Of a stretch of DNA of 64,000 bases, positions 46,924 through 53,075 are shown one piece after another. The first letter of the stretch is position 1. The number at the start of each line of letters is the position of its first letter. The position numbers and the translations under genes are program-made. The notes under the pieces were generated by a model. It saw nothing but the letters and a program-made list of their open reading frames with translations. It made no database searches and was not told the origin of the DNA. This stretch comes from Acidobacteriota bacterium. GTDB taxonomy: Bacteria; Acidobacteriota; Vicinamibacteria; Vicinamibacterales; JAFNAJ01. The stretch is taken from NCBI GenBank assembly GCA_023384575.1, contig JAHDVP010000024.1, positions 1 through 64,000 of the forward strand, read 5' to 3'.

Positions 46924-47625
46924 TCACGGCCGGAACACGAGGATGTGCTGCCACGGCAGCACGTCGATGACGCGGTCGAAGCGGTAGCCCTCGGCCTCGA
47001 GTTCCAGACGCGCCTCCTTGACGCTCATCTTGTGTTCCTCGCGGATGGGGACCCAGCGGCTTTCCTTGCGGTACTCGATCAGCACCAGCCGCCCGTCGGG
47101 CTTGAGCGACCGGCGGAGATTCCGCAGGACTTCCTGCGGTCTCGCGAGCTCGTGGTAGACGTCGACCATCAGCACGAGCTCGAACGCGCTATCGGGCAGG
47201 CGCGGGTCGACGTCGGTCGACAGCACGAGCTCGACGTTCTCGAGCCGCGCGCGCTTCATCCGCCGCTCGAGCATGGCCAGCATCTCCGGCTGGATGTCGG
47301 TGGCGTAAACCCTGCCGTCCGGCCCGACCTGCCTGGCGAGACGCTCGGTGTAGTAACCGGAGCCGGCGCCAACGTCGGCCACGACCTGGCCGGGCCGGAT
47401 GTCGAGCGCGGCAATCGCCAGGCTGGGCCGTTCCTCGATCTCCCGCTCCGGTCGGTCGAGCCAGTCCGCACCTTCATAGCTCATGACCGGGGCGATCTGT
47501 CGCCCGCTGACGGGATGTCGGCCCTGGGCCTCACCTGGGGCCGGTCCGGCGGCGAGGAGCACCAGCCCGAGTCCCAGCCGCGCGGTCAGACGAACCAAGG
47601 GTGCAGATGTCGTGGGTTCGCGCAT
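46924..47625 (-). CDS. Class I SAM-dependent methyltransferase with N-terminal signal
   Basis: A 233-residue Rossmann methyltransferase. VADVGAGSGYYTERLA (motif I, about 82-98), ATDIQPEML (acidic residue binding the SAM ribose) and VLMVDVYHEL are intact. The first 33 residues form a convincing export signal (LGLGLVLLAAGPAPGEAQ). A cytosolic-type enzyme with a signal peptide is odd, because SAM is not expected outside the cytoplasm. Similar signal-bearing methyltransferases are common in acidobacteria and proteobacteria, with unknown substrates. It lies downstream of the copper/ECF operon by 108 bases and may be co-transcribed. Confidence 0.85.
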   Translation of the reverse strand: MREPTTSAPLVRLTARLGLGLVLLAAGPAPGEAQGRHPVSGRQIAPVMSYEGADWLDRPEREIEERPSLAIAALDIRPGQVVADVGAGSGYYTERLARQVGPDGRVYATDIQPEMLAMLERRMKRARLENVELVLSTDVDPRLPDSAFELVLMVDVYHELARPQEVLRNLRRSLKPDGRLVLIEYRKESRWVPIREEHKMSVKEARLELEAEGYRFDRVIDVLPWQHILVFRP

Positions 47626-47733: not shown

Positions 47734-48354
47734 TCACAAGGGCGGACGGCGCGGCTTCCGGCACCGGCAGTCGAGGCATCCGTGTTCGGCACAGGTGCCG
47801 CACGAGGCGACGACCTGCTTTCGCAGCGCCTCGCGCGCGCGATGGACGCGCACGGCGGCGTTGCCGGCCGAGATGCCCGAGCGCGCGGCGAAGTCCTTCA
47901 CCGGCACCCCGTGGACGTCGATTTGCCGCAGCGCCTCCGCGTACTCGGGCTTCAGCGTCCTCGCGAGCGTCGAGACACACTCGCAAATCGCGTTCTGCAC
48001 ATCGGCGGGTGGCACGACCTCGTCGAGTTCGCGGGCGAAGGCGTCGATCGCCCGGCGCGACGCGTCGTGGCGCCGGTAATGATCGACGATCGCGTTGCGG
48101 AGCACGCGGTAGAACCACGCCACCGCCGACTCCTCGCCCCGAATCGTGTCGAGTCGGTCGAGCGCGCGCCCGAACGCGTCCTGCAGCAGGTCTTCCGCCG
48201 TCTCGCGGCTGCCTACGCGCCGTTCGAGAAAGCGGAGGAACGCGCGGTGGTTCTCGACCAGGGCCTCGAGCACGGTCGGCGAGTCGGCCGCGTCCGGCGC
48301 CAGGGTGGTGTCGCTGTCGAGGTCGAGCGTCCGTTGGCGAGCCGGGTCGGTCAT
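47734..48354 (-). CDS. ECF sigma factor with Cys-rich C-terminal tail
   Basis: A 206-residue sigma-70-family ECF factor. Region 2 is at about 30-100 (TAEDLLQDAFGRALDRLDTI, AVAWFYRVLRNAIVDHYRR) and region 4 at about 125-180 (PEYAEALRQIDVHGVPVKDFAARSG). The tail CGTCAEHGCLDCRCRK has five closely spaced Cys plus His. Tails like this occur in ECF factors of heavy-metal loci without an anti-sigma gene, and probably sense metal or redox directly. No anti-sigma gene is adjacent. GGAGG precedes the ATG. It is last in the copA operon, whose promoter (51553-51578) it may itself recognise. Confidence 0.92.
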   Translation of the reverse strand: MTDPARQRTLDLDSDTTLAPDAADSPTVLEALVENHRAFLRFLERRVGSRETAEDLLQDAFGRALDRLDTIRGEESAVAWFYRVLRNAIVDHYRRHDASRRAIDAFARELDEVVPPADVQNAICECVSTLARTLKPEYAEALRQIDVHGVPVKDFAARSGISAGNAAVRVHRAREALRKQVVASCGTCAEHGCLDCRCRKPRRPPL

Positions 48355-48459
48355 GGATGGACCCTCCAGAGACGGGCGATCGCCGGCGGTCGGATCGCAG
48401 CGGCCCCGGCGCGTGTGGCGCCGGGGCCGTGGACTACGGACATCGAAGCGACCGCCCGG

Positions 48460-48741
48460 TCAGTCGCAGCCGCAGGCGCACGCTGGCGCAGCCGAGGGCG
48501 TGCTCCCCGCCGACACGGGCGTCGCCGGGTACCCCGCGCCCGTGATGGCCGCCACGATGGCCGCGGGCGTCGACGCTCCCGGTTCGAACCGAACGCTCGC
48601 GCGACCGCTGGTCAGATCGATGTCGACGGAGTGTACACCCGGAAGCTGGCTGGCTGCCGCCCGGACGCGGGTCGCGCACGCGCGGCAGGTCATCCCGGAG
48701 ACGCTCAAGACGGTGGAAGCGGGCGAGGTGCTGGTCGACAT
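48460..48741 (-). CDS. HMA-domain copper chaperone (CopZ-like)
   Basis: A 93-residue protein made of one heavy-metal-associated domain with GMTCRAC near residues 16-22 and an extra Cys-rich tail (CACGCD) that may hold further metal. It would deliver Cu(I) to the CopA ATPase encoded 15 bases upstream. AGGGAG precedes the ATG. It belongs to the leftward cupredoxin-copA-HMA-ECF operon. Confidence 0.9.
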   Translation of the reverse strand: MSTSTSPASTVLSVSGMTCRACATRVRAAASQLPGVHSVDIDLTSGRASVRFEPGASTPAAIVAAITGAGYPATPVSAGSTPSAAPACACGCD

Positions 48742-48756
48742 GGAACACTCCCTGTG

Positions 48757-51108
48757 TCAGGCGACGCGCAACACGCGCAGTCGCAGGCTGTTGGTGACGA
48801 CGCTCACCGAGCTCACGGCCATGGCCGCGCTGGCGAGAATCGGGCTGAGCAGCAGACCGAAGGCCGGGTAGAGGACGCCTGCCGCAATCGGGATGCCGAG
48901 CGTGTTGTAGGCGAACGCCCAGAACAGGTTCTGCTTCATCGTTCGCATCGTGCCGCGCGAGAGCGCGATCGCGTCGGCGACGCCGCGAAGATCGCCGCGC
49001 ATGAGCGTGACGTCGCTCGCCTCGATGGCGATGTCGGTGCCCGTCCCGATGGCGATGCCCACATCGGCCTGCGCGAGGGCGGGCGCGTCGTTGACGCCGT
49101 CGCCGACCATCGCCACGACATGCCCACCCGCCTGCAGCCGCTCGATCTCCGCGACCTTGCCCTCGGGCAGGACCTCGGCGACGACCCGGTCGATGCCGGC
49201 CTCGCGCGCGATGGCCTCGGCCGTGGCGCGGTGATCGCCGGTGAGCATGACCACCTCGAGGCCGAGCGCGCGCAACCGCGAGATCGCCGTGGGCGCGGAC
49301 GCCTTGACCGGGTCGGCGACGCCCAGCAGCCCGCCGGGTCGACCGTCGATGCCGACGAAGACTGGCGTCCGACCCCGCTCGGCCAGCGTCTCAGCGGCGT
49401 CAGCAAGCGACGTCACGTCGATGTCTTGTCCGGCCATCGACGCGGCGTTGCCGACGACGACCGCGTGCCCGTCGACACGGCCCGTGGCACCACGCCCCGT
49501 GATCGAGGCGAAGTCGTTCGCGGGCAGGAGCCCGAGTCCGCGGTCGCGCGCAGCACGAACGATGGCGTCGGCGAGCGGGTGCTCCGAGCTGGCCTCGAGC
49601 GACGCGACGAGCTGCAGCAGCCGCGCCTCGTCGCGCCCGGCCGGACCCACCACCATGTCGGTCACCACGGGCCGGCCCTCGGTGACCGTGCCGGTCTTGT
49701 CGAGCACGACGGCCGTCACGTCACCGGAGCGTTGCAGGGCCTCGCCGCCCTTGATGAGCAGGCCGAGTTCGGCCCCACGGCCCGTCGAGACCATCACGGC
49801 GGTCGGCACCGCCAGACCCATCGCGCATGGGCAGGCGATGATGAGGACTGCGACCGCCGCGGCGAGGGCGCGGACGAGTGGCGCCTCGTCGGCGGCGACG
49901 AACCAGACGACGAAGGTCGCCACCGCGACCGACAGCACGACGGGCACGAAGACGCGGCTGATGCGATCGGCGAGCCGCTGGATCGGCGCGCGCGAGGCCT
50001 GCGCGTCGCGCATCAGCCGCACGATCCGGCTGAGCACGCTCGAGGCGCCGAGGTTCGACGCCCGGTAGCGGAACGCCCCAGTGCGGTTCACCGTGCCGCC
50101 GATGACGGCGTGGCCCGGCCGCTTCTCGACGGGCAGGCTCTCGCCGGTGAGCATCGACTCGTCGACGGCGCTCGCCCCCTCGATCACCACGCCGTCCACC
50201 GGGACGCGCTCGCCAGGTCGCACGAGCACGATGTCGTCGACGACGACGTCGGCGATGGCGATGTCGACATCGCCTCCGTCTCGCACCACCCGGGCCGTGT
50301 CCGGCTGGAGGGCCGCGAGCGCCCGCAGGGCCGACGAGGTCTGTCGCTTCGCGCGCGCCTCGAACATGTTGCCGACGAGAATCAGCGCGACGATGAACAG
50401 CACGGCCTCGTAGTACAAGTCGGGCGTCATGCCCCGGCTCAGAAAGAAGCCAGGGACGAAGGTCGCCGCGAGCGAGTAGAGGAACGCGGCGCCCGTGCCG
50501 ACGGCGACGAGCGTGTTCATGTCGGCCGTGTGGTGGCGAAACGCCGACCAGGCTCGCGTGTAGAAATGGCGGCCGGTCCACCCCATCACGACGCTCGTGA
50601 GCCCGAGCAGCAGGCCGAGCAGCCACGACGTGTCGATGGCGTAGAGCCAGGGCAGCCACGCCGAGAGCCACGGGTCGATGACCGCGTGGCTCCACCGCAT
50701 GAACGGGTCGCCGCCCGGCGCACCCCCGTGGTCGTGGTGCCCCAGGGCCGAGAGCGCGCGCATGACCGGCATGGACACCACCATGCCGACGATCGCGGCG
50801 CCCAGGCTGACGAGGGCCTTCAGGCGCAGGTCGCGGTACTCGGCGACCTGCGCCTCGTCCTGCGCCTGCTGTTCGTCGATCGGCTCGGGAGCGGTGGCGG
50901 GAATCTCCGCGCCGTAGCCCGTCGCGCGGATCGCCTCGGCCAGCCGATCGGCTTGCACGACGGAAGGGTCGAACGACACGATGGCGTTCTCGAGCAGCAG
51001 GTTCACGGACGCGGCGCTCACCCCGGGTGTGTGCTCGAGCGCGCGCTGCACGTGGGCCGAGCACGACGCGCAGGTCATGCCCGAGACGGGGATGGTCGTC
51101 GTTTCCAT
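48757..51108 (-). CDS. copA: Copper-exporting P1B-type ATPase
   Basis: A 783-residue Cu(I) pump. One N-terminal HMA domain (GMTCASC, about 10-16) is followed by eight membrane helices, with the CPC metal site in [15 protein letters not shown] (transmembrane helix 6), the phosphorylation motif DKTGT, the TGE actuator loop and [11 protein letters not shown] His-rich stretch HHDHGG lies between helices 1 and 2. It expels copper from the cytosol. ATG 51108 has GAGGTGA upstream and begins the HMA domain. It lies 14 bases after the small cupredoxin gene and 15 before the HMA chaperone gene. Confidence 0.97.
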
Positions 51109-51122
51109 GGTCGTCACCTCTC

Positions 51123-51500
51123 TCACGCGTCCACCGTGATGCGTCCGCGCAGCATGCCCATGCCGCACGTGAACTCGAACGTGCCAGGACGATCCGGCAC
51201 GAACTCGACCGGGGTGATCCGGTGCGCCGCCAGGAAGCGCTTCACGCCGAAGTCGGGCACGACCACCTCTTCCGAGCAGGGCGAGGTCTCGCGCCGGTCG
51301 AAGAGCAGCCGCACCGGCGTGCCGGCGCGCACACGGATGTCGGCGGGCTGGTAGCCGCCCTGAACGACCACGGGCACCTGCTGAGCTCCGTTGGTCGGGA
51401 CGGCGGCCACCGCCTCGCGCCCGGCGAGGAAGAAGTACCAGTTGATCCACACGATGGTCGCCAGCCCCGCGGCGACCACGATCCAGTCGAGTGCGTTCAT
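51123..51500 (-). CDS. Membrane-anchored cupredoxin-like protein
   Basis: A 125-residue protein with an N-terminal transmembrane anchor (residues 5-26) and a cupredoxin domain: [17 protein letters not shown], then [14 protein letters not shown], the recurring Cys/Met signature of copper-locus cupredoxins. It likely binds copper on the outer face of the membrane beside CopA. It is the first gene of the operon, with GGAGG before the ATG, and is transcribed from the ECF-type promoter at 51553-51578. Confidence 0.9.
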
Positions 51501-51552
51501 GATCCTGTCCTCCCTGGCGGACGCTGCCTCCGATCCGCCCGTCATTCCGGCA

Positions 51553-51578
51553 GACGCACGAGCGTCCCTGGCATTACA
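51553..51578 (-). promoter_or_regulatory. ECF-type promoter of the copA operon
   Basis: Leftward TGTAATGCC (51578-51570) and, 15 bases after GTAATG, CGTC (51556-51553). An identical TGTAATG-N15-CGTC arrangement faces the opposite way at 51621-51646. The predicted start is near 51547, with GGAGG and the ATG at 51500 downstream. Confidence 0.65.
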
Positions 51579-51620
51579 CAAGCGCCGGCGCCCCGGCGGT
51601 GAGGCGGGCGCGTGCGGCGC

Positions 51621-51646
51621 TGTAATGCCGCCGCGGTGCGTGCGTC
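51621..51646 (+). promoter_or_regulatory. ECF-type promoter of the divergent outer-membrane protein
   Basis: TGTAATGCC (51621-51629), then CGTC at 51643-51646, 15 bases after GTAATG. The predicted start near 51652 leaves a 20-base leader with AAAGGAGA (51657-51664) before the ATG at 51672. It mirrors the copA operon promoter and shares GTGCGTCT around the -10 region. Confidence 0.65.
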
Positions 51647-51671
51647 TCCGGACGCGAAAGGAGACCGTTCC

Positions 51672-53075
51672 ATGACACGACATCACTTCGCCGCCGTCGT
51701 CCTCGGCCTGACGTTGGGGGCCGCCTCGGTCGGTCACGCCCAGACGCACGGCCACGAAGGCCACGTGCACGACGCCGGCACGACGCCGACGACGAGCTCA
51801 CCCGATCAGCCCGACGCGCTCGCCACGTTCTTCATGCAGCAGTCGTCGGGCACGAGCACGCAGCCGGCCAGCTGGCCGATGCCGATGTGGATGAAGGACC
51901 ACGCGGGCTGGCAGTTCGGGGTGATGGGACAGGCGTTTCTCGTGTCCACCGCACAGTCGGGCCCGCGGGGTGACGACGGCGTCTACTCGGTGAACTGGCT
52001 GATGGCGTCGGCCGGCCGGTCCGTCGGGCGGGGCCGCGTCCAGTTCCGGATCATGACCAGCGCCGAGCCGGCGACGACCGACCGACGACGCTATCCGCTC
52101 CTGTTCCAGACGGGCGAGAGCGCGTACGGCACGCCGCTCGTCGACGGCCAGCACCCGCACGACTTCTTCATGGAACTCAGTGCGCAGTACGCGAGGCCGC
52201 TCGGGCGCGGCGGCATCGCCAGCGTGTACTACGGGGTCGTCGGCGATGCGGCCGTCGGGCCGGTGGCGTTTCCGCATCGGGCCTCGGCGCTCGAACTGCC
52301 CCAGGCCACGCTCGGGCATCACTGGCACGACTCGACGCACATTGCGAGCAACGTGCTCACGATCGGCTGGACCAGGGGCCCGGTGCGCCTCGAAGCCTCG
52401 GCATTCCACGGCACCGAACCAGACGAACGCCGGTGGGACGTCGACCTCGGTGCGATGAACTCGTGGTCGGTCCGCACGAGCGTGGCGCCGCATGCGAACT
52501 GGATGGGGCAGGTGTCGTTCGCCCGCCTTCGCCAGCCGGAGTCGTTCCACCCCGACGACGTCGATCGCACCACGGCCTCGGTGCACCACGTGGCGGCCAG
52601 GGGCGATGGCGACGCGCTCGCGACGAGCGTGATGTGGGCGACCAACCGCAAGAGCGTGGCGCGGACGCGAACGCACGCCGTCGCCGTCGAGACGCTGGTA
52701 CCCGTGGCCAGCGGGCACCTCGTGAGCGGTCGCCTCGAGTGGACCCAGCGCGACGAGCTGTTCGAGTACGACCACGACCTCGCGCACGAGATCGCGGAGC
52801 GGACGGGAAAGACCGCCTTCGACGTGACAGCCCTGACGCTGGGCTATACACGCGAGCTCGCGGCGACCGGAGGGCTCGGCGTCGGCGTTGGCGCGACGGT
52901 GACACGGTACTGGACGGACCGGGCGCTCGTCCCGTTCTACGGGGCGAAGCCATGGGGCGCGTCGGTCTTCCTGCGGCTCCGCGTGCGCGGGCCGTCGGGC
53001 AATCATGGGTCGCATGCCCCTACAATGGCGGAGCGTGCGGGCCTGGCACCGTCGGAGGGCCAGCCGCGACGTTGA
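51672..53075 (+). CDS. Outer-membrane protein of the copper locus
   Basis: A 467-residue exported protein. The signal peptide covers 1-23 (ends GHAQ), followed by a His-rich stretch (THGHEGHVHD) and a Met-rich segment (MPMWMKDH) suited to copper binding, then amphipathic beta strands to about residue 440 (SVFLRLRVRG). The C-terminal 25 residues lack the usual terminal aromatic and may be an extension. I recognise no named family, but similar barrels occur in copper-resistance regions. It shares a divergent ECF-type promoter with the copA operon and probably responds to the same signal. Confidence 0.75.
   Translation: MTRHHFAAVVLGLTLGAASVGHAQTHGHEGHVHDAGTTPTTSSPDQPDALATFFMQQSSGTSTQPASWPMPMWMKDHAGWQFGVMGQAFLVSTAQSGPRGDDGVYSVNWLMASAGRSVGRGRVQFRIMTSAEPATTDRRRYPLLFQTGESAYGTPLVDGQHPHDFFMELSAQYARPLGRGGIASVYYGVVGDAAVGPVAFPHRASALELPQATLGHHWHDSTHIASNVLTIGWTRGPVRLEASAFHGTEPDERRWDVDLGAMNSWSVRTSVAPHANWMGQVSFARLRQPESFHPDDVDRTTASVHHVAARGDGDALATSVMWATNRKSVARTRTHAVAVETLVPVASGHLVSGRLEWTQRDELFEYDHDLAHEIAERTGKTAFDVTALTLGYTRELAATGGLGVGVGATVTRYWTDRALVPFYGAKPWGASVFLRLRVRGPSGNHGSHAPTMAERAGLAPSEGQPRR

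Follow-up and report, generated by a model that had tools for sequence, protein, structure and literature searches.

A copper operon and a divergently oriented gene share a single 171-base intergenic gap in the genome of an Acidobacteriota bacterium (contig JAHDVP010000024.1; the whole 64,000-nucleotide stretch analysed is hereafter called the window), which raises the question of which factor transcribes both units and what signal it answers. According to the original prediction, two mirror-image promoters in this gap are read by an ECF sigma factor encoded in the operon itself, which would sense copper and thereby control its own synthesis as well as the divergent gene.

The operon lies on the minus strand and begins with a cupredoxin-like small protein (51123–51500; Pfam Cupredoxin_1, 2e-17), followed by copA, encoding a copper-type P1B ATPase with an N-terminal HMA domain (48757–51108; TIGR01511 above cut-off, Pfam E1-E2_ATPase), a 93-residue CopZ-like HMA-domain copper chaperone (48460–48741; Pfam HMA, 9e-17, and CopZ-type NCBIfam models) and the 206-residue ECF sigma factor (47734–48354). 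The latter had been described as the last gene of the copA operon; its terminal position is uncertain, as a methyltransferase gene (46924–47625), which could be part of the operon or regulon or stand outside it, lies 108 bases further along the same strand. Elsewhere, a UbiE-type methyltransferase gene lies behind a CorE-type site, in a locus from Desulfobacteraceae (L082:206, plus strand). The remaining genes near the sigma factor encode a GYF/zinc-ribbon protein, a hydrolase, a SEC-C protein and a matrixin. Between the chaperone and sigma factor genes, the sequence at 48355–48459 folds into a GC hairpin of very high stability (−65 kcal/mol, z = −3.4) that lacks a T run and could tune how much sigma factor the operon yields. 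On the opposite side, the plus-strand gene at 51672–53075 encodes a 467-residue secreted protein with a His-rich N-terminus that matched no Pfam or NCBIfam family; its structure model (pLDDT 75) had general porins as top Foldseek matches (E about 1e-9), and we predict a porin-like outer-membrane barrel. Homologues of the barrel gene are present in 60 of 149 relatives, and a copA homologue lies close by in four of the 19 barrel-family loci examined. Likewise, the cupredoxin is the first operon gene in two further loci (L003 and G018/L227), and a cupredoxin-copA-ECF operon downstream of a CorE-type promoter recurs in both (L003, G018).

Within the window, TGTAATG-N15-CGTC occurs exactly twice, at 51553–51578 on the minus strand and at 51621–51646 on the plus strand, precisely where the two opposed sites had been placed, whereas shuffled windows gave 0.02 expected matches and never reached two (0 of 100). 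Searching the entire 5,887,706-base (5.89 Mb) genome, a check that had been proposed along with the model, returned the same two intergenic matches only. Both sites face outward from the gap between the cupredoxin start (51500) and the divergent start (51672), with their -35 elements back to back and separated by 42 bases. The operon promoter comprises a -35 TGTAATG at 51572–51578 and a -10 CGTC at 51553–51556 (minus strand), its counterpart ahead of the outer-membrane gene a -35 TGTAATG at 51621–51627 and a -10 CGTC at 51643–51646 (plus strand). The sequence reported as common to both sites around the -10 element, GTGCGTCT, is correct, but the shared block proved longer than described and reads TGTAATGCC-N9-CGTGCGTCT. 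A weight matrix built from other genomes only scored the plus-strand site at 26.2 and the minus-strand site at 25.9, with the next best position in the 64 kb at 10.3. Transcription from ECF promoters usually starts 6–8 bases downstream of the -10 element, and this geometry predicts starts at about 51545–51547 for the operon and about 51652–51654 for the outer-membrane gene, hence a leader of about 46 bases for the operon and one of about 20 bases for the outer-membrane gene, both containing a Shine-Dalgarno-like sequence (AAAGGAG at 51657–51663, plus strand, for the outer-membrane gene). Rfam gave no match within the window, and a consensus search found no sigma-70 promoters. Looser patterns were also tried as a source of further regulon targets and rejected, with sites at chance level: TGTAA-N17-CGTC added one site genome-wide, with no gene start behind it, and the extended pattern with one mismatch added eight scattered genome sites, no more than its reversed control.

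The sigma factor itself consists of sigma2 and sigma4 domains only (Pfam Sigma70_r2 and Sigma70_r4_2; NCBIfam sigma70-ECF above cut-off), followed by a cysteine-rich tail, and no anti-sigma gene was found among the annotated genes neighbouring it, so that both features ascribed to it earlier hold. Two cysteines form a CxC motif in the linker (Cys124-Glu-Cys126; codons at 47977–47985, minus strand), and five more follow the pattern C-x2-C-x4-C-x2-C-x-C in the tail (residues 185, 188, 193, 196 and 198, within CGTCAEHGCLDCRC; Cys185–Cys198 codons at 47761–47802, minus strand). In an alignment of 45 homologues (alignment A3), all seven are among just 18 invariant positions. Cys185, Cys188, Cys196 and Cys198 are spaced identically to the invariant cysteines 181, 184, 192 and 194 of CorE, and Cys193 is the equivalent of CorE Cys189, the main activation residue of that protein. 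Cys188, in turn, is followed by alanine, leaving no adjacent cysteine pair of the CorE2 type (Cys173-Cys174 in CorE2). The homologues span Acidobacteriota, Myxococcota, Planctomycetota, Gemmatimonadota and other groups; the one from Myxococcus xanthus is about 58% identical to the window protein and carries cysteines at positions 120, 122, 181, 184, 189, 192, 194 and 206, its tail numbering being that published for CorE. In the tree, the window protein groups with L003, L004 and G018 (support 99/90) inside a large clade that also contains CorE, separate from the CorE2-like Myxococcus group. The tail was of low confidence in the structure model. Judged by domains, alignment and tree, the protein is a CorE-like factor (former ECF44; CRD-ECF; ECF44/ECF238), and its tail cysteines follow the pattern of the copper type (CorE) rather than that of the Cd/Zn type (CorE2). 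CorE-like factors in Acidobacteria were listed already in 2011, and the window system thus belongs to a known kind; in the 2021 ECF classification (ECF238 scheme), CorE is unclassified.

Does the motif belong to this family beyond the window? Across 78 loci around homologous ECF genes, TGTAA-Nk-CGTC matched 68 times at k = 17 and 0–5 times at any other k from 8 to 27, whereas first-order resampling of the same loci gave 0–4 matches. A strict site was present in 54 of the 78 loci, and in roughly half of the others the weight matrix recovered variants close to the consensus. The flanks are conserved as well, with G or C before TGTAA and T or G then G after it, and with TG before CGTC and A or T, G and C after it. 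In 27 loci with short flanks taken from whole genomes, a set that is not fully independent as a few genomes are common to both, we counted 16 matches at k = 17, none at other k between 14 and 24 and at most two elsewhere. Six alphaproteobacterial plasmid loci, two of them near-identical, gave 16 matches at k = 17 against 0–1 elsewhere when either CGTC or CGTT was accepted. By contrast, 23 loci around other ECF genes (L090–L112), which served as a negative control, contained no match to TGTAA-N17-CGTC. A whole-genome test, which is free of the bias of selecting loci by ECF, detected the extended motif in 21 of the 45 ECF-bearing genomes and in 38 of the 351 that lack the ECF (P = 4e-8, with no correction for kinship). 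Of the 25 extended-motif sites in the ECF-bearing genomes, 13 lay no more than 10 kb from the ECF gene. The genes that come first downstream of the sites encode P1B ATPases (15 of 55), HMA proteins (10), cation diffusion facilitators (3), cupredoxins (3), one multicopper oxidase, one outer-membrane efflux protein and, at several loci, the ECF itself; metal-related neighbours are partly expected here, since the loci were selected by ECF. Together, these comparisons provide an independent link between the motif and the CorE-like family. They also bear on the idea that the two promoters are real but served by another sigma factor of the genome, which holds 13 further ECF-like matches: given that the motif accompanies CorE-like factors across phyla, is absent around other ECFs and meets a single CorE-like gene in this genome, we regard that reading as so improbable as to be nearly negligible.

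The mirrored layout invites a different explanation, namely that the opposed TGTAATG blocks form a dimer operator of the CueR, CsoR, CopY or CopR type, with CGTC being incidental. L013, L027 and L037 contain divergent site pairs as well, and in L013 both blocks even make a near-perfect palindrome, as an inverted-repeat operator would. However, the blocks are 42 bases apart in the window and 2, 33 and 146 bases apart in those loci, CGTC stays fixed at N17 in both directions, most loci carry single, unpaired sites, and no boxes for CopY, CueR or PcoR-like copper regulators were found. We therefore consider an operator very unlikely, and the variable gaps are most simply read as two promoters for two transcripts. 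A further relative, G009, again places the barrel gene and copA divergently, with TGTAATG-N15-CGTCATT ahead of the barrel gene (L223, 13142, minus strand) and, on the copA side, TGTAA-N16-CGTC, one base under the N17 rule. No CorE-like ECF was found in this 94%-complete genome despite the motifs, a finding that counts against the model; the gene may have been lost or left unassembled, or the sites may be read by another factor.

The strongest functional support is transferred from a relative, M. xanthus, whose CorE-dependent targets appear to lie behind the same motif. Four sites in strain AM003 (L125) precede copA, a cupredoxin gene, an HMA gene and a run encoding a His-rich protein, an efflux protein, an oxidase and CorE; AM003 genes were matched to DK1622 names by gene type and order. 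In strain DK1622 lacking CorE, copper no longer induces cuoB or the HMA gene MXAN_3427, and the fast induction of copA is lost (PMC3107203). TGTAAG-N16-CGTC was present between -42 and -110 in four of four regions, and no AAC, which the authors of 2011 had sought in the -35 element of CorE targets, occurred at a common place in the regions examined (region ends set by hand in both cases). The copB gene of M. xanthus was not located. Five additional loose-pattern matches in M. xanthus (L127, L129, L134–L136) look like chance and were discarded.

As to the signal, the sites might be CorE-type while the sigma factor answers mainly zinc, cadmium, silver or thiol stress, the copper genes being part of a wider metal response. 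CorE responds weakly to cadmium and zinc (PMC3107203), CorE2 is a Cd/Zn sensor, and alphaproteobacterial relatives keep the promoter beside non-copper genes. That some family members have neighbours unrelated to copper also counts against the copper model. Yet the tail has CorE spacing including the Cys189 equivalent, lacks the adjacent cysteines that give CorE2 its specificity, and copper fits all four operon genes, which makes a signal other than copper improbable.

CorE of M. xanthus (MXAN_3426; PMC3107203) is the closest model, sharing with the window protein the ECF core, the CxC linker, the tail cysteines at positions 181/184/189/192/194, the missing anti-sigma gene, the surrounding copper genes and, by sequence comparison, TGTAA-N17-CGTC ahead of its putative targets (copA, the HMA gene and the oxidase-corE run). 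CorE binds DNA and activates transcription in a copper-dependent manner, being switched on by Cu(II) and off by Cu(I). Unlike CorE, the window protein has no equivalent of Cys206 (of minor importance in CorE), its -35 element reads TGTAAT instead of TGTAAG, its gene sits inside the copA operon instead of behind a multicopper oxidase, and the target is a predicted porin-like barrel instead of a TolC-type efflux protein. CorE2 of M. xanthus (PMC9023288, PMC8999054) belongs to the same family and mechanism class, but is Cd/Zn-dependent, with a specificity set by the adjacent cysteine pair that the window protein lacks. CorE2-like Myxococcus and Archangium loci (L069, L072, L076/L128) also differ from the window in carrying TGTAACC-N15-CGTC ahead of a cation diffusion facilitator gene, with C after TGTAA where copper loci have T or G. 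OrbS of Burkholderia cenocepacia, another ECF that has no anti-sigma factor, likewise senses its metal through C-terminal cysteines, but its on-board sensor is for iron, it is inhibited rather than activated by Fe(II), and its cysteine spacing and siderophore-gene targets are different (PMC9023288).

Considering the strict spacing of the motif in this family and the CorE-dependent genes of M. xanthus, the original model of a copper-sensing sigma factor driving its own operon and the divergent gene is well supported as an inference, and we hold it highly probable that a self-sensing, CorE-like sigma factor controls a divergent copper-defence unit through TGTAATG-N15-CGTC. Copper would load the cysteine domain, with redox gating presumably as in CorE, and the sigma factor would direct RNA polymerase to both sites; one would drive the cupredoxin-copA-chaperone-sigma factor operon, resulting in positive autoregulation, and its mirror image the outer-membrane barrel protein, until export lowers cytoplasmic copper and the system switches off. 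Given this promoter pattern, which goes with CorE-type copper-sensing sigma factors in several bacterial phyla, the two sites very probably constitute a self-amplifying copper switch of the kind known from Myxococcus. Against this model we also count the weak Cd/Zn response of CorE mentioned above and the merely partial autoregulation of corE in M. xanthus (PMC3107203).

Relative to CorE, the window adds an Acidobacteriota system compacted into one operon and one divergent gene; a two-promoter copper switch contained in 171 bases should be easily rebuilt in a laboratory strain. A useful addition is a spacing-strict promoter consensus that extends across phyla and signals, from which regulons could be predicted for many of these sigma factors, in a family whose experimentally studied members are CorE and CorE2 only (PMC8103513). 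More generally, and with the chances about evenly balanced, cysteine-tailed sigma factors from Acidobacteriota and Myxococcota to alphaproteobacterial plasmids may all share (G/C)TGTAA[T/G/C]G-N13-TGCGT[C/T][A/T]GC despite differing signals and targets, recognition having stayed fixed while the sensor diverged. Paralogues in the same cell would then need insulation by small differences, and the base after TGTAA could act as such an insulator (T or G near copper genes, C near the Myxococcus cation diffusion transporter).

Two minor observations concern the wider locus set. The alphaproteobacterial plasmids (L228–L233), several of them conjugative, encode CorE-like ECFs that lack the Cys189 equivalent, keep the motif and adjoin Complex I-like, DUF6629 and lipid genes. 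Across L003–L082, T-G-A-A is over-represented at promoter-alignment positions 34–37, about 8–11 bases past CGTC, which corresponds to the expected transcription start or the bases just beyond it and possibly reflects Shine-Dalgarno sequences in part.
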